Below, piece after piece: positions 37,320-63,456 of a stretch of 64,000 nt of DNA. Source of the stretch: Bryobacterales bacterium (GTDB taxonomy: Bacteria; Acidobacteriota; Terriglobia; Bryobacterales; Bryobacteraceae). The position numbers and the translations under genes are program-made. Where the stretch lies: positions 1-64,000 of the forward strand of contig JAFAQY010000053.1 in the NCBI GenBank assembly GCA_019261985.1, in the 5' to 3' direction. The notes under the pieces were generated by a model. That model saw only the letters and a program-made list of their open reading frames with translations. It made no database searches and had not been told where the DNA came from. Each line of letters begins with the position of its first letter. Position 1 is the first letter of the stretch.

Positions 37320-40300
37320 CTAGCGGCGCGCTGGGAGCTCGGCCAGAAGCTCTTTCACCGCGGCGTCGAGCTGCGAGTCGCGGCCGGTGTAGCTCTCGCC
37401 GACGGGCCTCGATGCTGCGACATCCACTGCGCGGGGCCGCCGCTCCATGTCGTCTCCCGCGGCGGTGCGGATTCGCGAATGCGGCAGGCGGAACACTGTT
37501 CCATCCAATAGGGGCACGTTCCAGGTGTAGATGATCCAGCCCGCCGTCGGCTCGCCGACTACCTTGCCCAGGCCGAGCGCACGGTAGCCCTCGGTGAAAT
37601 CCTCGGCATCGGACAGAGAATGCTGATTTACAACCAAGACCGTCGGGGCTTCCAGAGCACGCTGGCCGAGCACGGTGCGAGCGGGCGCTTCATTCAATCC
37701 GCGTTCAGTCATCCGGAGATACGGACGCCGCGCGAAGACGTCGAGCGCGTAGGCGTTCACGAAGCCGCCGTTGTTGTTGCGAATATCGATCACCACGCCT
37801 TCGCGCGACTGATTTTCCGCATCCAGGTCCAGCGCCAGCCTGTCGAGTGCTTCCTGCGACATGTCTTGCATGTGCACGTAGCCCAGGCGGCCGCCGCTTA
37901 TCTTGGCCACGTACTCACGGTTTTGATTCACCCATTCGCGATACAGCAAGTTTCTCTCGGTCGCGAGGTTTACCGGCTGCACCGGAACTTCGCGTCCGGA
38001 AACCGTCAGCGAAACGCGTTTACCGATGGTGCGATCCAGAAGTTGATCGACATTCGTATGCCCGTCGATGGCCACACCCTCTACGGCCTCGAGTACCTCG
38101 CCCGGTCTAATTCCGGCGACGTCCGCGGGCGAGAGCGGAATCACTTCCGTAACTTTCAATTTTCCGGAGTTCTCATAGCCCTCCCGGTCGAAGCGCAATC
38201 CTAGCCGGCCGGTTGTGGTTTGAGCATTACCGGCGGGCGCGTTTGCGCCGAGATGGGACGCATTCAGCTCTCCGATCATTAGCAGCAGCAACCGGCGCAT
38301 CTCATCCGATGTCGCGGCCCCCGCGATCAGCGGCTCATACTGGATCCGGACGGCGTTCCAATCCACGCCGTTGAAGTTGGGATCGAAAAACTGATCGCGC
38401 AAAAAGGTCCAGGCCTGGCGGAAGACTTCCGTCTTCTCGCTCGCAAAATCCACGTCGATTTCGGCATTCACGGCGAGTTGCTTCGGCTGGCGCGAATCCA
38501 GCGCGACCGAATAGACGCTGCCCCGCTCGAGATAAAACACTTCCTTGCCGTCCGGGGAGAACTGAACGCTTTCTTTTCGTCCCGGCGTGGAAGTGAGTTG
38601 GCGCGCGACCGCGGCCTCGCGCGCGAGATCGTCGAGGGAATATGAATACAGATTCTGCTGGCCGGCCGAAATCGCCACCAGCACGGCCGTTTTTCCATCG
38701 GGACTAATCTGGATGCTATTCACGCTCAGACCGATAGGCAGCACCGATAATCGCTCGCGGATGCCGTCGAACACGATTTTTAGCGGCTCATGACCGGGCT
38801 TTTCGGTTGTGGCGGAGGCCGGCTTCGGAGCCTCGGGCGCGCTTCCGTTGCTGCTGGTAGCCGGCAGCGGCTCCGGCTGCTTCGGATCGCGAAAGAGATC
38901 GCGAAATTGATCTTCGCGGAACCGCGGCGTCCGTGGGAGCAGATCGATGCGCGCGACTTGATTGTTCTCGGTCCGCTGGGTGGTCGTGAACAGCAGGTAT
39001 TTTCCGTCCGGGCTCCAGGCCAGATTGTCGCTATAAGTATTTGCCAGGAAGCTGATTGGCCGCGGCTCTGCGTCGCAAGCTTCAGCTTGCCCGGGACAAG
39101 CTGAAGCTTGTCCTACTTCGGTTACCGGCGCCGCCCAAACATTGCGGAACGACTTCTCGCCGACGTCGACATACGCCACCCATCGGTTGTCAGGCGACCA
39201 TGCGAAGGGCGAATCGTCCGACAACGGCGGCAAGCCGAAGCGGCCCTTGGCCAGAACACGATTGCGTTTCGTAGCCAGGTCCAGAACTCGCAGTTCCGTT
39301 CCCGCGCGCAAGAACGCGAGCGATTTGCCGTCCGGTGAAAAACGCGGAGCATCGTCCGGTCCTTCGGTAATCTGGGTTTCTTTTGCTGTTGCGAAATCGT
39401 ACAAAAATACTTGCCCTTGGCCGTTGCGCTGCGAGACGTACGCGAGTTTCCGGCTATCCGGGCTCCATGCGGGCGCGGATTCGGGCGCGGAGGTGTGAGT
39501 TATTCTGCTGGCATCGCCCCCTTCTTTCGAGGCGGCGGCAAACACCTCGCCGTGACTGACGAAAGCGACTTTTTTGCCGTCCGGAGAGAGCCGGAGATCC
39601 TCGAATCGCCCGTTGAGTGAAATGTGCTGCACGGCCTGGCCGGACGGAGCGCCCCGCCGGGTGATTTCAACCGGCGCGGCCTTGGCCGTGGTGGTATCGA
39701 GCTTCCAGATGCGGAAATCACGCTCGAAAACAATAGCGCGGCCGTCGGCCGAAATGGCCGGCCACAAAACACGGCCGTTCGTGAACTGAGTCACCTGCTG
39801 CGGTTTTCCATCTATCGCAAAGCGTACGGCGCGGCGGCCTTGATCAAGCGGAGGCAACCCCGCCGCGCCGGACGCGCTTTGCGCTGGGTTATTGGAGAGC
39901 GCGCGTTTCCAGATATTCTGTGCGCCGCTCCGATCGGACATGTAATAGATCGACCGGCCGTCCTTGGCCCACATGGGCCAAGCCTCTTTGGCGCCGCCTT
40001 CCGTGATCCGCTCGTAGCGGGCCGGCGAGCCTTCGTGGCGCAACCAGATTTCCGACTCGTCCAAATGGCTGTGCCCCTTCCGCCACCACTGATTGCCCGC
40101 AAATCCACGAGCGGTGAGCGCAAGCACGCCGTCCAAGGGCGAGGGCGCAGCGAAGTATTCCGGAAGATAGCGATCGCCGCTCACGATCATCGCCGTCCCG
40201 CCGTCGCGATTAACGCGGTAAATATCTGTCGTGCCGATGTCGCGGGCGCCTGACGAGAAATAGATCCAGCGGCTGTCGGGCGACCACCCTTCGACCAGCT

Positions 40301-40619
40301 CATTGGAGTCGTCGAACGTGAGCCGTTTCAATTCACCGGTAGCGAATGTGAGCAGATACACATCGCCGTTGCCGGTGCGCGTGGAGGTAAATGCCAGGTA
40401 CTTGCCGTCGGGCGAATAGAGTGGGCGGGATTCCGTCGCGGGGTGGGAAACCAGCAGGTGTGCATCTCCGCCTTTCGCGGCAACCGTCCAAATATCTCCG
40501 CCCGAGACAAAAGCAATCTCCGAAGCATCGGGCGAGATGGAGGGCTCTCCGAAATAGGGTTGCGGCTCGGCTGCCAGGCAGGCGGCCGCCCCCAATAAAA
40601 CCAACCCATATTGGCGCAT
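37320..40619 (-). CDS. Exported tricorn-like S41 protease
   Basis: A 1099-residue protein with signal peptide (YGLVLLGAAACLAAEP). Residues about 25-640 hold WD40/TolB-like beta-propeller repeats (recurring FSPDGK and WSPDSR). A helical linker, a PDZ region (ADVAGIRPGEVLEAVEGVAIDG) and a C-terminal S41 core follow: GVVIDIRNNNGGFV and the nucleophile region NQHSLSDAEDFTEGYRA with GEPTAGW. This fits tricorn-type proteases that trim peptides, here in the periplasm. An unusual peptide, GQASACPGQAEAC at residues 503-515, is encoded by a copy of the dispersed palindrome. The ATG at 40619 was preferred over 40742 because the signal peptide follows it. Confidence 0.9.
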   Translation of the reverse strand: MRQYGLVLLGAAACLAAEPQPYFGEPSISPDASEIAFVSGGDIWTVAAKGGDAHLLVSHPATESRPLYSPDGKYLAFTSTRTGNGDVYLLTFATGELKRLTFDDSNELVEGWSPDSRWIYFSSGARDIGTTDIYRVNRDGGTAMIVSGDRYLPEYFAAPSPLDGVLALTARGFAGNQWWRKGHSHLDESEIWLRHEGSPARYERITEGGAKEAWPMWAKDGRSIYYMSDRSGAQNIWKRALSNNPAQSASGAAGLPPLDQGRRAVRFAIDGKPQQVTQFTNGRVLWPAISADGRAIVFERDFRIWKLDTTTAKAAPVEITRRGAPSGQAVQHISLNGRFEDLRLSPDGKKVAFVSHGEVFAAASKEGGDASRITHTSAPESAPAWSPDSRKLAYVSQRNGQGQVFLYDFATAKETQITEGPDDAPRFSPDGKSLAFLRAGTELRVLDLATKRNRVLAKGRFGLPPLSDDSPFAWSPDNRWVAYVDVGEKSFRNVWAAPVTEVGQASACPGQAEACDAEPRPISFLANTYSDNLAWSPDGKYLLFTTTQRTENNQVARIDLLPRTPRFREDQFRDLFRDPKQPEPLPATSSNGSAPEAPKPASATTEKPGHEPLKIVFDGIRERLSVLPIGLSVNSIQISPDGKTAVLVAISAGQQNLYSYSLDDLAREAAVARQLTSTPGRKESVQFSPDGKEVFYLERGSVYSVALDSRQPKQLAVNAEIDVDFASEKTEVFRQAWTFLRDQFFDPNFNGVDWNAVRIQYEPLIAGAATSDEMRRLLLLMIGELNASHLGANAPAGNAQTTTGRLGLRFDREGYENSGKLKVTEVIPLSPADVAGIRPGEVLEAVEGVAIDGHTNVDQLLDRTIGKRVSLTVSGREVPVQPVNLATERNLLYREWVNQNREYVAKISGGRLGYVHMQDMSQEALDRLALDLDAENQSREGVVIDIRNNNGGFVNAYALDVFARRPYLRMTERGLNEAPARTVLGQRALEAPTVLVVNQHSLSDAEDFTEGYRALGLGKVVGEPTAGWIIYTWNVPLLDGTVFRLPHSRIRTAAGDDMERRPRAVDVAASRPVGESYTGRDSQLDAAVKELLAELPARR
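39075..39113. repeat. Palindromic repeat pair inside the tricorn-like protease gene
   Basis: GCAAGCTTCAGCTTGC (39075-39090) and a perfect GGACAAGCTGAAGCTTGTCC (39094-39113) lie inside the coding region without disrupting it. On the coding strand they read GQASACP followed by GQAEAC. The same pair in the same order is found inside smc. Confidence 0.92.
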
Positions 40620-50455: not shown

Positions 50456-50708
50456 CGACGCGAGTGCCCCTTGACCTGCCGTCGGCGACTGAAAATCTGG
50501 TGAAAGAGAGCAGCTTCGTCGCACCGGTCCCAGTTCAAGCGAAATGGGATTATTATGCTTTCGATAAATTATCTCGGAATTTCTTTAACGCAAGGGTAAT
50601 GTTGTGCTTTTGGTGGCACTACGGCGCAAAGCTTGCGTTACGCCACCAGCCAATCGGCTACCGCGGGAATAGATGCAGCACGCCAGCATCGTAAGTTATT
50701 GAGGGAGT

Positions 50709-50753
50709 TGGTTGCGGGGGAAGGATGTGAACCTTCGACCTCTGGGTTATGAG
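50709..50753. repeat. Distal attachment-site copy: 3' part of the initiator tRNA gene
   Basis: These 45 bases match 51909-51953, the 3' half of the fMet tRNA gene from the CCA end to the anticodon, with two mismatches. The copies are exactly 1200 bp apart and in the same orientation. After the anticodon the similarity ends. This is the expected product of integration into a tRNA gene, where one copy restores the gene and the other marks the far end of the element. Confidence 0.85.
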
Positions 50754-51736: not shown

Positions 51737-51908
51737 TGCTCGGTTAAAAACGTGAATTGGATCCCTCACGATACTTGGTTGGACCCAAAGCCCTATCATT
51801 CGCGGCAAGTACCCGGTTTCACTGGATTTCGTCTGGGGTCTCGTCGGCTATTGCCAACGATGCTTGCGACACTGAGCTGGGAAAATCGACCGGGAACTGA
51901 TCGATTTT

Positions 51909-51985
<77 letters not shown>

Positions 51986-54836: not shown

Positions 54837-56627
54837 GTGGCAACCAAGCGCGCGGATCCAGCAGGGCGGCTGAACCAGCGCGACCTCTGGCTGGCGGCTC
54901 TGCTGGTATCGCTGCTCCTGCTCGCCTACATTCCGGCGCTCAGCGGGGGCATGGTCTGGGATGATGACGCTCACATCACCCGGCCGGAGCTACGCTCGCT
55001 GGGCGGCTTGGGCCGCATTTGGTTCCAGCTGGGCTCCACGCAACAGTACTATCCGCTTTTGCACACCGCCTTTTGGTTGGAATATGCCTTGTGGGGCGGC
55101 GATGTGCGCGGATACCACCTTACGAATCTGGCGCTGCACGCGTGCTCGGCTCTGTTGCTGGTCGTGTTGCTGCGGCGGTTGGAAATGCCGGGAGCCTGGC
55201 TGGCCGGCTTTTTATTTGCTTTGCATCCTGTCTGCGTAGAATCCATCGCGTGGATCTCAGAGCAGAAGAACGCGCTCTCGACTGCGTTTTATTTGGGCTC
55301 GGCGTTGGTTTATCTGCGCTTCGACCAGAGCCGCCGCCGCGCTGACTACTATGGCGCGCTCGCGCTGTTTGTGGCGGCGCTGCTGAGCAAGACGGTAACC
55401 GCAACCTTGCCGGCGGCCTTATTGGTCGTGCTTTGGTGGCGGCGAGGAAAGCTCGATTTGAAGCGCGATGTGCGGCCGCTATTGCCTTGGCTCGCCATGG
55501 GGGTCGCGGCCGGGATTTTCACAGCGTGGGTGGAACGGCGCTACATCGGCGCCGGCGGCGCGAATTTTTCCCTGGCCTTACTCCAGCGTGTGCTGCTCAG
55601 CGGACGAATCCTTTGGTTTTACCTGGCAAAGCTGGTTTTGCCTATCAATTTGCTGTTCACTTATCCACGCTGGACCGTGGACCCGAGAGTTTGGTGGCAG
55701 TGGTTGTTTCCAACCGGCGCCGTTATTCTGGCGGCGGCTCTGGTGCTGCTGGCTCGAAGATTTCGCGGCCCACTCGCCGGCTTCTTGTTCTTCGCGGGAA
55801 CTCTCTTCCCCGTGCTCGGCTTCCTCAATGTTTACCCGTTCATCTTCTCGTTCGTGGCGGATCACTTTCAATATCAGGCGAGCCTCGGGATTTTAGTCCC
55901 CGCGGCATACGGGCTCAATTGGGCGAGCCGCAAGCACGCCATCATTCCCGCGATCGTAATCGCTGCCATGGCCGCGCTGACGTGGAATCAGACCGGAGTG
56001 TTTCGAGATGCCGAGACGCTCTATCGCGACACCCTGGCTCGCAATCCCGACAGTTGGATGGCGCACAACAACCTGGGTTTCGTGTTGGCCGCAATGCCCG
56101 GGCATCGAGACGAGGCTATTCAGCATCTCGAAGCAGCCGTTCGTTTAAACCCTGGCGCCGCGGAAGCGCACATGAACCTTGGTGTCTTCCTCGCGGAAAC
56201 GGGGCACTTGGAAGAAGCTGTGGCGCACTACCGGGCAGCGCTCGAAATTTATCCTACGTATGCCGTCGTTCACAACGATCTCGGCGCCGCGTTATCCCAA
56301 CTTCCCGGCCGCTCGGAAGATGCCATCGAGGAGTATCGGGCAGCGCTCCGGATCAATCCCAATTACGCCGAAGCCCATAACAACCTCGGCAGCCTGCTGC
56401 TTCACACGGCCGACGGGCAGTCGACGGCCATAAAGGAATTTCAAGAGGCTCTGCGCCTGAATCCGGGCTTGGTTGAGGCGCACGCGAATCTCGGGTCCGC
56501 GCTGGCGAGCACGCCGGGAAGGCAAGACGAAGCGATCTTCCACCTCCAGGAGGCGTTGCGGGTACGTCCCGATCTACAAGCGGAGCGGCAGTTGTTATCC
56601 AACCTTCTGGCTGCGCGGCAGCGCTGA
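54837..56627 (+). CDS. Membrane protein with C-terminal TPR repeats (GT-C glycosyltransferase-like)
   Basis: A 596-residue protein. The N-terminal two thirds contain about ten hydrophobic segments, with the loop GGMVWDDDAHITRPELRS after the first, resembling the PMT/GT39-like family often called TPR-domain O-mannosyl/GlcNAc-like proteins; ESIAWISEQKNALSTAFYL is another marker. From about residue 390 four to five TPR units follow (NPDSWMAHNNLGFVLAAMPGH, NPGAAEAHMNLGVFLAETGH and so on). I use the GTG at 54837 because the earlier ATG overlaps the divergent DinB start. The TPR part is duplicated at 58941. Confidence 0.85.
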   Translation: MATKRADPAGRLNQRDLWLAALLVSLLLLAYIPALSGGMVWDDDAHITRPELRSLGGLGRIWFQLGSTQQYYPLLHTAFWLEYALWGGDVRGYHLTNLALHACSALLLVVLLRRLEMPGAWLAGFLFALHPVCVESIAWISEQKNALSTAFYLGSALVYLRFDQSRRRADYYGALALFVAALLSKTVTATLPAALLVVLWWRRGKLDLKRDVRPLLPWLAMGVAAGIFTAWVERRYIGAGGANFSLALLQRVLLSGRILWFYLAKLVLPINLLFTYPRWTVDPRVWWQWLFPTGAVILAAALVLLARRFRGPLAGFLFFAGTLFPVLGFLNVYPFIFSFVADHFQYQASLGILVPAAYGLNWASRKHAIIPAIVIAAMAALTWNQTGVFRDAETLYRDTLARNPDSWMAHNNLGFVLAAMPGHRDEAIQHLEAAVRLNPGAAEAHMNLGVFLAETGHLEEAVAHYRAALEIYPTYAVVHNDLGAALSQLPGRSEDAIEEYRAALRINPNYAEAHNNLGSLLLHTADGQSTAIKEFQEALRLNPGLVEAHANLGSALASTPGRQDEAIFHLQEALRVRPDLQAERQLLSNLLAARQR

Positions 56628-58764: not shown

Positions 58765-58940
58765 AGTCGGTAAGCGAAGGCAAATCGGGAGAGTTGATGA
58801 ACCTCAGCGGTTTGAGCCGCATTCGGCTAAGTGCTGGGTCGACGGGAAGCTTTTCATGTCGAGGCCACGCCGGGGCGAACCGTATTTTTCGCTCGTAATT
58901 CCCGCCGCCGAACGTCACTGGGCCTTGCACATGGGCAGGC

Positions 58941-59591
58941 CTGACGTGGAATCAGACGGGAGTCTTTCGAGATGCCGAGACGCTCTATCGCGACATGCTG
59001 GCTCGTAATCCCGATAGTTGGATGGCGCACAACAACCTCGGATTCGTGTTGACCGGGATGCCTGGGCTCCGGGACGAGGCGATGCAGCATCTCGAACAAG
59101 CGGTTCGTTTAAATCCGGCCGACGCGGAAGCACAAATGAACCTTGGTGTCTTCCTCGCGGAAGCGGGGCACTTGGAAGAAGCTGTGGCGCACTACCGGGC
59201 AGCGCTCGAAATTTATCCTACGTATGCCGTCGTTCACAACGATCTCGGCGCCGCGTTGTCCAACTTCCTGGCCGGTCGGAAGAGGCTATCGAGGAGTATC
59301 GGGCCGCGCTCCGCAGCAATCCCAACTACGCCGAGGCACACAACAATCTCGGCAGCCTGCTGCTACACACGCCCGGCGGAGGGCCTGCCGCGTTGCAGGA
59401 ATTTCAAGAAGCGCTGCGCCTGAACCCCGGAATGGTTGAGGCGCACGCGAACCTCGGCTCGGCGCTGGCGAGCACGCCGGGAAGGCAGAATGAGGCGATC
59501 TTCCACCTTCAGGGAGGCGTTGCGGGTACGTCCCGATCTACAAGCGGAACGGCAGTTGTTATCGAATCTGGTCGCGGCGCGCCAGCGCTAA
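58941..59591 (+). pseudogene. Truncated, frameshifted duplicate of the TPR region of the 54837-56627 gene
   Basis: These 651 bases align end to end with 55977-56627, the TPR-coding tail of the upstream membrane-protein gene. One stretch (59164-59257) is identical over 94 bases to 56200-56293. The copy lacks the membrane part, loses one base near 59259 and gains one near 59512, so TPR repeats continue in two frames (LGVFLAEAGHLEEAVAHY in the first, then PGRSEEAIEEYRAALRSNP in the second). The final tail is scrambled. The region 58765-58940 before it has no recognisable gene. Confidence 0.85.
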
Positions 59592-59724: not shown

Positions 59725-62700
59725 TTGCTGAAACTGAAACGAGTCGATATCCAGGGATTTAAGTCGTTTTACGACCGCAGCGATCTTCGGTTCCATGGAA
59801 CGGGGATTGCCGCCATCGTCGGACCGAACGGCTGTGGAAAATCCAACATCAGCGACGCCATTAGTTGGGTCCTGGGCGAACAGAGCGCGAAGAGTCTTCG
59901 TGGAGCTCGCATGGAAGATGTAATCTTCGCCGGCACGCGCGACCGCAAGCCGCTCGGCCTGGCGCAGGTGACTCTGACAATGGTCGACCCAGCGGCGGCT
60001 ACACCGATTCCCAACGCTCCGCATCACGCTCATATCGAAACTTCGGTTGGTCCGGATGGTGAAACTCACATCGAGGCGCATTCTGAATTGCCGGCGAATG
60101 CAAACGGGAACGGCGTGCACCCGCAGCATCCCAAGCCGGAAGAGATCACGATTACGCGGCGGCTTTACCGCTCCGGTGAAAGCGATTACCTGATTAACGG
60201 CCGCCCGGCGCGGCTGCGCGATATTCAGGACCTGTTTATGGGCACCGGTCTTGGCCCGGAAAGCTACGCCATTATCGAGCAGGGGCGCATTGGGCAGATT
60301 CTCTCGAACAAGCCGGCTGACCGCCGGGCCGTTATCGAAGAAGCTGCCGGCATCGGCAAGTATAAAACCCGCAAGCGGCTGGCCGAGGCGAAGCTCGAAA
60401 GCGCCCGGCAGAACCTTTCGCGCGTGTTCGACATTCTCGAAGAGGTCGGCCGTCAGGCGAACTCTCTGAAGCGGCAGGCTTCGAAGGCGAAGCGGTACGA
60501 AGAGCTGCGGACGCAAATGCTCGGCCATCTGCGCCGCGCGGTGGCGGGTCGGTTTACAGTACTCGAGCGCGAAGCTACGAAACTGGCGCTGGACCTGAAC
60601 GAAGCGCAGACCGCTTTTCAGGGATTCTCGGCACAAGTGCAGGAAAAGGAAGTCGAGCACACCTCCACGCAAGAAGCCTGTTTCAAAACGGAGGCGGCGC
60701 TGACTTCGGCGCGAAGCCGGGTAGCGGAACTCAATCTCGAATCGGAGCGTACGCGCGGCCGCTTGGAAATGCAGGCGAAGCAGATCGCTGCGATCGATGA
60801 GCGCCTCACCACCGGCGAGGCCGAGACACAGAACCTGGAAGCGCGGCATCAACAGGAAAACGCGGAATTGCAAGCGCACACGCAGACGCTTGCGCAACTC
60901 GAAACCGCGAGTGCCACCGCGCGGGAGAATCTCCAGGCCAAGACCGCCGAACGCGACGCGCTCCAAACCAGCCTGCGCGCGCGTGAGCGCGCCATCGAGG
61001 TGTCGCGTCAGCAGGTGCTCAGGCTTCTGGGCGAAGCATCCACTTTGCGCAATCAGCTCGCCCAAATCGACGAGTACCTCGCGGGAATGGAACGTGACTC
61101 CGCCCGGTGCAAACGGGAAGAAGAAGCCGCTTCCTCCGACCTTGCGCGAATGGAGCAAATGAAGAAGGATCTCTCCACGCGATTGTCCGCCCGGCAGATG
61201 GAGCTTGAGTCCCTAGCGGATCGCCGCCGGCGAGTGGAAGAGGAAATCAAGCAGCGGCAGGCCAGCACGGTCGCCGCGCGAGCGCGGTTGGAGGAGGTCC
61301 GCGGCGCGCTCTCGCGGCAAAAGGCGCGCAAAGATTCGCTCGAAGAGATTCTTTCGCACCGGTCCTACACAACGGAAAGCGTAAAGCGGCTCTTCGAACA
61401 CGAACCCGTGGAGGGTTTCAAGCCGGCGGGCGTGCTGGCGGATTTTGTAGAAGCAATCGATCCGGCTTGGGAAAAAGCCTGCGAAACGTTCCTTCACGAG
61501 GAGTTGGAATACGTCGTGGTCAATGGATGGGCCGAAGCCGAGCGTGGCATCGAGCTGATGTACGCCGAATCGGATGGCCGCGCGACATTCCTCGTGCATC
61601 TGCTCGTAGGACAAGCTTCAGCTTGTCCCGAACAAAGCACTGGACAAGCTGAAGCTTGTCCTACCGGCGTTGCCGGCCGGCTTAGCGATACGCTTCGATT
61701 AACCAACGGCCTCGCTGCCGCGCCTCAGGATCTGGCGCCGCGTCTTTCTCGCTGTTTCCTGGTCTCCGATCGAGCTACGGCGCAGCAGTTGGCTATCACT
61801 AATCCTGATTGCTACTTCCTGTTGCCCGACGGAGTGAGCTATCACGGACACGCGGTCAGCGCCGGCCGGAAAACCGGTGGCGGCCCGCTCGCGCTTAAGC
61901 GCGAACTGCGCGAACTGAACCTGCAGGTGGACCAGCGGCAGCGTGAAACCGACGCTCTGGCGGGCGAAATCGAAGAACTCGAGCGCAGCACGTCGCAATT
62001 AAGGGAAGAGCTGGAACACGTCCGCCATTTGCAGCAATCGCAAGAAAAGGATGCGTTGGCGCTGGATCACGAACAGCGCAAGCTGGCGGAGGAGTTCACT
62101 CGCTCCGGATCGCGGCTTTCTGTAGCTCGGCTAGAGCTGGAGCGTTTGGGGCGGGAAGACAGCCGCGCTCGAGCGCAGCGCGAAGAGAGCCAGCGTGTCG
62201 TGGCCGAAAAGGAACAGGCGCGCTTCGAGCAGGAGAAAGAACTCGAAGCCGCGCGCGCCGAATTCGAGCGAATGCAGGCGCAAGCTCACAGTATTGGCGA
62301 AGAGCATGCGGCACTCCGCGCCGACCTCGCCGGCCGCGATGAACGTTTGAGATCGGAGAAGGCAGCCGCGGCAAGGTTGGAGGCGCAACTCAGCCACCTC
62401 GCCACGCGGCGCGACGAGCTGGCTCGCGAACTGGAGCGCATGGGCGTGGAGCGCGCCCGCTTGCTTGCCGATAACATCGAGCTCGATCGGAAAGCGGCAA
62501 GCCTTGCGGAAGCAACAGCGGACGCTGCCGCGGAAGTAGAAAGGCTCGCCACGGAAGAGACCGCCGGCCGCGCGGCGCTACTCGCTCTTGAAGAATGTTT
62601 GAAAGCCCTGCGCGCTGAAGCTCAGACCGCGCAGGACCGGCGCAGTGAACTCGAAGTCGAGTTGGTCAAGAAGCAAGGCGACCTCAAGTATCTCGACGAG

Positions 62701-63456
62701 ACCAGCCGGAAGGAGTTGAACGTATCCGCATCGGACGTCGCCGCGGGAGAATCCGAAGCGTCCGACGCGGAGGAAGCCGAGCAGCGGTATCAGGAAATCC
62801 GCGCAAAAATCGACGCGCTGGGGCCTGTCAACCCGCAGGCGCTTGAAGAATATCGCGAAGCGCAGCAACGCTACGACTTCCTCAACACGCAGCGCCAGGA
62901 TTTGCTCGATTCCATCCGCGATACGGAGAAAGCGATCCACGACCTGGATATCGAATCGCGGCGGCGATTCAAAGAAGCGTTCGACTCTATCAACGAGCAC
63001 TTCCGCGAGATGTTCCGGACCCTTTTCGGCGGCGGCCAGGGGGAGATGCGGCTCACGGACGAAGAAAATATCGGCGACAGCGGGATCGACATCATGGCTT
63101 CGCCCCCCGGCAAGCGTTTGCAAAATGTCGCGCTACTTTCCGGCGGCGAGAAATCCCTCACCGCAATGGCTCTGCTGATGGCGATTTTCCGCTACACCCC
63201 CAGCCCCTTCTGTATTCTCGACGAAGTGGACGCGCCGCTGGATGAACCCAACATTCAGCGCCTCACGCGCCTGATCAAAGAGATGTCGGAGACCACCCAG
63301 TTCATCGTGATCACGCACGCCAAGCGGACCATGGAGGCCGCGCAAGCGCTCTACGGTGTAACCATGCAGGAGCCGGGCATTTCGAAATTGGTCAGCGTGC
63401 GCTTCGAGCCGGTAGATGAAAAGGGCACCCAGGTAGTAGAGCTAGCGGCGGTGTGA
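59725..63456 (+). CDS. smc: Chromosome segregation protein SMC
   Basis: A 1243-residue SMC that compacts and organises the chromosome with ScpAB. Walker A is GPNGCGKSN (about residues 32-40); long coiled coils surround a central hinge (about 540-720); the C-terminal head has the signature LSGGEKSLTAMAL and Walker B PFCILDEVDAPLDEPN. AGGAGGGG precedes the TTG start. In the hinge region residues 629-646 are encoded by two copies of the dispersed palindrome (GQASACPEQSTGQAEACP). An N-terminal insert near residues 115-135 (ANANGNGVHPQHPKP) is also unusual but may be lineage-specific. Confidence 0.95.
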   Translation: MLKLKRVDIQGFKSFYDRSDLRFHGTGIAAIVGPNGCGKSNISDAISWVLGEQSAKSLRGARMEDVIFAGTRDRKPLGLAQVTLTMVDPAAATPIPNAPHHAHIETSVGPDGETHIEAHSELPANANGNGVHPQHPKPEEITITRRLYRSGESDYLINGRPARLRDIQDLFMGTGLGPESYAIIEQGRIGQILSNKPADRRAVIEEAAGIGKYKTRKRLAEAKLESARQNLSRVFDILEEVGRQANSLKRQASKAKRYEELRTQMLGHLRRAVAGRFTVLEREATKLALDLNEAQTAFQGFSAQVQEKEVEHTSTQEACFKTEAALTSARSRVAELNLESERTRGRLEMQAKQIAAIDERLTTGEAETQNLEARHQQENAELQAHTQTLAQLETASATARENLQAKTAERDALQTSLRARERAIEVSRQQVLRLLGEASTLRNQLAQIDEYLAGMERDSARCKREEEAASSDLARMEQMKKDLSTRLSARQMELESLADRRRRVEEEIKQRQASTVAARARLEEVRGALSRQKARKDSLEEILSHRSYTTESVKRLFEHEPVEGFKPAGVLADFVEAIDPAWEKACETFLHEELEYVVVNGWAEAERGIELMYAESDGRATFLVHLLVGQASACPEQSTGQAEACPTGVAGRLSDTLRLTNGLAAAPQDLAPRLSRCFLVSDRATAQQLAITNPDCYFLLPDGVSYHGHAVSAGRKTGGGPLALKRELRELNLQVDQRQRETDALAGEIEELERSTSQLREELEHVRHLQQSQEKDALALDHEQRKLAEEFTRSGSRLSVARLELERLGREDSRARAQREESQRVVAEKEQARFEQEKELEAARAEFERMQAQAHSIGEEHAALRADLAGRDERLRSEKAAAARLEAQLSHLATRRDELARELERMGVERARLLADNIELDRKAASLAEATADAAAEVERLATEETAGRAALLALEECLKALRAEAQTAQDRRSELEVELVKKQGDLKYLDETSRKELNVSASDVAAGESEASDAEEAEQRYQEIRAKIDALGPVNPQALEEYREAQQRYDFLNTQRQDLLDSIRDTEKAIHDLDIESRRRFKEAFDSINEHFREMFRTLFGGGQGEMRLTDEENIGDSGIDIMASPPGKRLQNVALLSGGEKSLTAMALLMAIFRYTPSPFCILDEVDAPLDEPNIQRLTRLIKEMSETTQFIVITHAKRTMEAAQALYGVTMQEPGISKLVSVRFEPVDEKGTQVVELAAV
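61609..61661. repeat. Two palindromic repeat copies inside smc, in frame
   Basis: GGACAAGCTTCAGCTTGTCC (61609-61628) and GGACAAGCTGAAGCTTGTCC (61642-61661) are perfect copies in opposite orientation separated by 13 bases. They do not interrupt the smc frame. The TAG that usually borders the element is read out of frame here (GTA GGA), so no stop arises. Both arms could pair with each other in DNA or RNA. Confidence 0.93.

Follow-up and report, generated by a model that had tools for sequence, protein, structure and literature searches.

How does a dispersed palindrome come to be read as protein in the middle of smc, and does SMC make any use of it? The gene in question lies at 59725 to 63456 (plus strand) of a 64,000-nucleotide stretch of Bryobacterales DNA, the whole of which was analyzed and is here called the window. 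Translation starts at a TTG codon after AGGAGG, and the 1,243-aa product matches TIGR02168 (952.9 bits; cut-off, 567.35) and PF02463. In its own genome assembly (6.49 Mb in 138 contigs, 98.83% complete), smc is single-copy, with the exception of one weak further match (E value, 3.7e-4; query residues 610 to 689) that has three internal stops and falls in a stretch with other REP copies. Of 61 genomes from the same genus, family, order, and class, 59 encoded SMC, and the best-matching named relatives of the protein are from Bryobacterales/Acidobacteria assemblies. Two further repeats were observed in the window. The 3' part of a tRNA-Met gene (51909 to 51985, minus strand) is repeated (50708 to 50753 and 51908 to 51953; 96% identity, 1.2 kb apart) and is reminiscent of a remnant attachment site left by an integrated element. 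A TPR-like gene has its end (55970 to 56625) duplicated 2.96 kb downstream at 58934 to 59589 (84 to 90% identity), directly upstream of smc, and this second copy looks frame-disrupted.

The doublet and its place in the SMC hinge

An earlier note on this DNA had described two inverted 20-bp palindromes in phase with smc. Both are present, GGACAAGCTTCAGCTTGTCC at 61609 to 61628 and GGACAAGCTGAAGCTTGTCC at 61642 to 61661, and they encode SMC residues 629 to 646 (GQASACPEQSTGQAEACP) as claimed. The position given for the unit was correct but its size was not: because each palindrome bears an outward GTAG, the true unit is slightly larger than 61609 to 61661 and extends from 61606 to 61664. This 59-bp doublet consists of two inverted 23-bp GTAG-tagged palindromes, each matching the genome consensus at 23 of 23 positions. 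The first REP, GTAG plus palindrome (GTAGGACAAGCTTCAGCTTGTCC; 61606 to 61628, plus strand), is translated as VGQASACP. It is followed by a 13-nt spacer (CGAACAAAGCACT, 61629 to 61641) and by the second REP (61642 to 61664), an exact consensus copy on the minus strand with the plus-strand reading GQAEACPT. Overall, the doublet is translated in phase as V628 to T647 of SMC (VGQASACPEQSTGQAEACPT), a segment with two cysteines ten residues apart, and the smc open reading frame runs unbroken over it. As single-stranded DNA, the 59 nt fold into one hairpin whose 23-bp stem encloses a loop of 13 nt (−26.7 kcal/mol; z score, −11.14), and 0 of 200 shuffled sequences were equally stable. Inverted REPs that make one hairpin are the arrangement expected of a REPIN or BIME.

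On either strand, only one of the three phases of the doublet is free of stops. In the direction of smc, one phase gives an immediate TAG, another gives TGA in the second palindrome, and the third, open phase is the one in use, bearing out the proposal that the TAG is avoided through phase. The length of 59 bp is not divisible by three, and the smc flanks must therefore have changed as well. No direct repeat was seen by eye at the flanks of the doublet, where native loops do not align.

The doublet falls in the variable loop of the SMC flexible hinge domain (residues 568 to 690; 61426 to 61794, plus strand; PF06470, 41.9 bits), between the conserved motifs GRATFLVH and GRL. To compare loop lengths, we used 44 loops from an SMC alignment of 48 rows (47 loci, fewer than the 59 genomes with SMC), omitting L051 (a broken row), L052 (two rows from a gapped genome), and L067 (a duplicate). 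The loop has 25 residues here and 14 to 29 in the 43 relatives, and the sequences are unrelated. Congener loops (n = 19) have 17 to 24 residues, most often 20, and are exceeded by only 1 to 8 residues in the present SMC. The loop lengths therefore do not support the claim that the element simply added 18 residues.

The hinge was also modeled with AF2 (SMC residues 532 to 732), using an alignment, A1, of 76 hinges (75/80 usable loci plus the window). The model had a mean pLDDT of 86.4 overall, with its lowest values in the block of residues 101 to 110 at the middle of the element (mean, 54), and its best solved match was the Geobacillus SMC hinge 5h69. The element residues (97 to 116 of the modeled fragment) are placed between predicted strands at 91 to 93 and 118 to 121, and no regular structure is predicted across fragment residues 94 to 117. 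The low loop pLDDT may be due in part to the absence of relatives sharing the sequence. Of the suggestion that the element is tolerated in a surface loop of the hinge, the part on tolerance in a loop is supported by the length-variable site in the 43 relatives and by the unstructured, low-confidence stretch in the model.

The REP-type peptide was not found in any other sequence of A1 (0 of 75 hinges) or of the SMC alignment (0 of 47 rows). The doublet is thus in phase in a conserved gene and missing from these homologues, as expected of an intragenic REP. A peptide conserved in SMC throughout the lineage was considered and rejected, as it is missing from the related hinges examined. The earlier note had held that relatives with the peptide but without the repeat would speak against it; 22 congeners have no repeat, and their alignable SMC rows have no peptide.

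The REP family and its candidate transposase

The window contains 16 occurrences of the motif GGACAAGC (expected, 2.41), and the 23-nt repeat family has nine copies there at an identity of at least 73%, a recurrence that is not due to chance. Genome-wide, the palindrome has 229 matches per strand with up to two mismatches, and the GTAG-tagged 23-mer has 221, a figure in which the few palindromes bearing GTAG on both sides are counted twice; the reversed control gave 0 in each case. These are the features of a GTAG REP family, namely a palindrome that is short, present in many copies, and tagged with GTAG on one side. The tagged 23-mer had 0 matches in 22 congeners (65 to 100% complete), and within the taxonomic family, 13 of 237 genomes, this one included, had matches, the next richest having 46 and 20. 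Patchy distribution among genomes is described as usual for REPs (PMC3733652).

To analyze orientation, 129 REPs (up to four substitutions, GTAG kept) were collected from stretches chosen around exact REPs. Among the 42 neighboring pairs (starts no more than 150 bp apart), GTAG faced outward (+−) in 32, while 6 pairs were ++, 4 were −−, and none faced inward (−+), so that doublet orientation looks non-random. Spacers of the 32 outward pairs ranged from 1 to 102 bp, with 8 at 1 to 2 bp and 7 at 7 to 9 bp, as raw counts without a null model. Because of this range, and because classical REPINs have preferred spacings, we use the label REP doublet of REPIN type.

Most copies lie outside genes. Of 90 exact REPs, 39 were intergenic, 37 were at a gene edge, and 14 (11 sites) lay within predicted genes, whereas 82% within genes and 9% at edges would be expected if copies were placed at random in these stretches. 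REPs are accordingly depleted inside predicted genes (14/90 versus ~82% expected), and the family is mainly extragenic according to our own gene prediction, which came from a purpose-written codon-usage script rather than curated annotation, in stretches chosen around REPs. In 20 of the 90 cases, the REP supplies the TAG stop of the upstream predicted gene, as REP ends do in other bacteria (PMC3733652), and such copies are therefore probably within transcripts. This bears on a role of the doublet at the DNA or RNA level, with the hairpin tuning smc at the level of transcription, translation, or mRNA decay, or else marking a protein-binding site. The strong 23-bp hairpin and the probable transcription of the stop-supplying copies are in keeping with such a role, but the mid-gene position of the doublet and its absence from 22 congeners make it very improbable.

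The genome has five Y1-transposase matches. One of them, on contig C119 (locus L001), matches REP_Tyr_transpos at 88.7 bits (cut-off, 80), with two exact GTAG REPs directly upstream; directly downstream, several inverted copies follow one another, of which one is exact. Here, the REP found in smc borders a RAYT gene on both sides. No such REP was present within ~1.5 kb of the other four Y1 loci. The C119 RAYT is likely the cognate of the REP family. Because exact REPs flank this gene and its match passes the cut-off, we regard the element as a doublet of GTAG REPs that likely has its cognate RAYT in this genome and, judging its mobility from sequence, as a mobile element of the RAYT type. In other bacteria, TnpA_REP has been described to cleave single-stranded REPs close to the hairpin, with CT or CA as the cleavage site (PMC8266576).

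Other in-phase copies and the fate of native loops

Exact REPs were found in phase and well inside six predicted genes with recognized domains: smc, a tricorn-like protease gene, the housekeeping genes carB (L203, contig C45) and murF (L233, contig C103), a heparinase-like gene, and a gene for a spermidine-synthase-like membrane protein. The tricorn-like gene (37320 to 40619, minus strand; PD40 repeats and Peptidase_S41) lies in the same window as smc and carries an exact in-phase copy at 39094 to 39116 (minus strand; VGQASACPGQAEAC). In smc, carB, murF, and the tricorn-like gene, the REP reads VGQASACP, followed in three of these by GQAEAC. The reading is RTSFSLS plus GQAEACPT in the heparinase-like gene and RTSFSLS plus KLKLALL in the membrane protein. 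The five other inside copies are located close to the ends of genes or within a short ORF, and for some of them, the predicted start may be wrong. One of the five encodes the C-terminal tail with which TrpA (L244; C129:1832-2644) ends (VGQAEACPTAGQAEACPTGSRP). An ORF at L250 with an in-phase near-consensus REP had no Pfam match and so was not counted as a conserved gene.

A separate observation concerns locus L192 (C24:13037-13059), at which a REP read as KLKLVLL leads directly into the lipoprotein-like signal LALVLVVLAGC, while congener relatives carry different sequences at the REP position. The protein presumably resembles an efflux membrane-fusion protein, and the REP may supply part of its lipoprotein signal peptide.

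These copies bear on whether the segment has been kept for the sake of SMC itself, be it as a two-cysteine loop, as a contact for DNA or a partner, or through an altered segregation or mutation phenotype. The doublet is perfectly intact in smc, and REP-tagged replication and repair genes have been speculated to be non-fortuitous targets (PMC3733652). However, the same peptide is found at the C terminus of TrpA and within the unrelated CarB, MurF, and tricorn-like protease, it occurs in none of the other A1 hinges, REPs are depleted from predicted genes, and the spacing of the cysteines has, by reading, no obvious metal-site pattern. We therefore consider a function in SMC very improbable; the selected coding function that had been proposed found no support, and tolerance in the loop is the more likely of the two.

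Comparison with congeners also bears on what became of the native loops. A pure insertion of ~20 codons into a congener-type SMC loop would give ~37 to 44 residues, and 25 were found; the native loop therefore seems to have been lost, a statement that describes a difference from congeners rather than an observed event. Judged in this way, the element appears to stand largely in place of the native loop instead of forming an extra 18 residues. The carB segment has 39 residues here and 34 to 38 in 19 congeners, one more than in most of them, with ~8 encoded by the REP. The murF segment has 50 residues versus 38 to 44 in 20 congeners (40 in 14 of them), with ~18 encoded by the doublet. Congener identity in the carB and murF segments is 62 to 83%. 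In three of the four comparable genes, smc, carB, and murF, the final length is well below that of native loop plus element, and these look like cases of partial or near-complete replacement; the loss could have been part of the insertion, could reflect later trimming, or could stem from a shorter ancestral loop.

In the tricorn-like protease, by contrast, the segment has 53 residues versus 38 in two usable congener relatives (49 and 44% identity) among four aligned, L326 and L306 having been set aside as misaligned. The excess of 15 residues is close to the ~14 encoded by the element, and this REP looks like an addition, which disfavors replacement as a general rule. In the heparinase-like gene (L231), the segment has 72 residues here and 70 to 107 in only four aligned relatives. 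We regard it as doubtful that RAYT-driven intragenic REP insertion generally replaces loops instead of adding to them; if it did, a mobile element would supply essential proteins with new linkers.

Origin and significance of the smc doublet

Taken together, the explanation that we hold to be very probably correct is that a GTAG REP doublet, probably moved by a RAYT, entered a tolerant loop of the SMC hinge and is read as an inert linker. The doublet belongs to a GTAG REP family that, among congeners, was found only in this species, and a RAYT (TnpA_REP, a Y1 transposase), for which we propose the C119 gene, probably moved it. It would have entered the hinge loop, perhaps recently, in its sole stop-free phase, and would have been retained because the loop tolerates varied sequences, accepting very different ones of ~14 to 29 residues. 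Much of the native loop was seemingly lost, together with the insertion or afterwards. Of many REP insertions, mainly those in phase in tolerant loops would survive. The protein is presumed to be made and to work, with the element as a neutral linker whose two cysteines would be incidental.

That the doublet was placed in smc by the assembler, through the collapse or false joining of reads at a dispersed repeat, is scarcely credible. The assembly is a draft of 138 contigs, contigs are often joined at dispersed repeats, and in one congener, a contig passes from smc into a dnaB-like gene inside the same loop region. However, SMC residues 1 to 1233 form one alignment with 76% identity to G006, the homology being continuous over the element, carB, murF, and the tricorn-like gene likewise contain the REP in phase, and 59 bp is short relative to the usual sequencing reads. 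In that congener (G015:C386:1-4500, L051), smc ends in the hinge loop and is followed by the dnaB-like gene (PF00772). The contig is most likely chimeric, and a biological break of smc at this loop in G015 is unlikely, given that the contig continues into the dnaB-like gene.

Several known systems are similar. To our knowledge, no RAYT moves the palindromic elements of Rickettsia. As cited in PMC3733652, these are in-phase palindromic repeats in unrelated conserved proteins, like the present ones, and RPE-1 insertions are longer than the smc REP. The smc case resembles GTAG REPs, described in 2013, that were found in phase inside conserved genes, many of them replication and repair genes, of which more than half are dimers or groups encoding 20 to 30 aa and for which loops and linkers were proposed as tolerated sites (PMC3733652). 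The smc doublet shares with them the GTAG palindromes in phase, the dimer, and the loop site, and differs from the cases in that text in that native loop residues appear to be replaced. The words "SMC" and "hinge" are absent from the main text of that paper. With the REPINs of Pseudomonas fluorescens (PMC3116915), the doublet shares inverted orientation, a long hairpin, high copy number, and a RAYT; as described, those elements are extragenic with preferred spacings, whereas here a copy is coding and spacers in the family range from 1 to 102 bp. The group 3 REPtron of Stenotrophomonas likewise has a 23-nt REP of GTAG plus palindrome, described as perfect, with a small loop and cut by TnpA_REP (PMC8266576), and the likeness is one of described architecture. 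In Solibacter usitatus, high-copy REP-like structures have been reported together with a class 3 TnpA (PMC6006769).

The intragenic in-phase REP is thus an already known phenomenon, of which smc is a new and well-resolved example; the loop-replacement pattern is the part that we did not meet in the literature covered. A literature search for REPs in connection with the SMC chromosome segregation protein returned no paper, a result for that search and not a claim of absence from print. In smc, a palindrome of a transposase-linked family has turned into coding sequence of a chromosome-organizing protein, and the 22 congeners without the repeat, together with the 19 congener loops, permit its comparison with the native state. 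With carB, murF, and the tricorn-like gene, it constitutes a small natural experiment on the effects of REP insertion and on the tolerance of protein loops.
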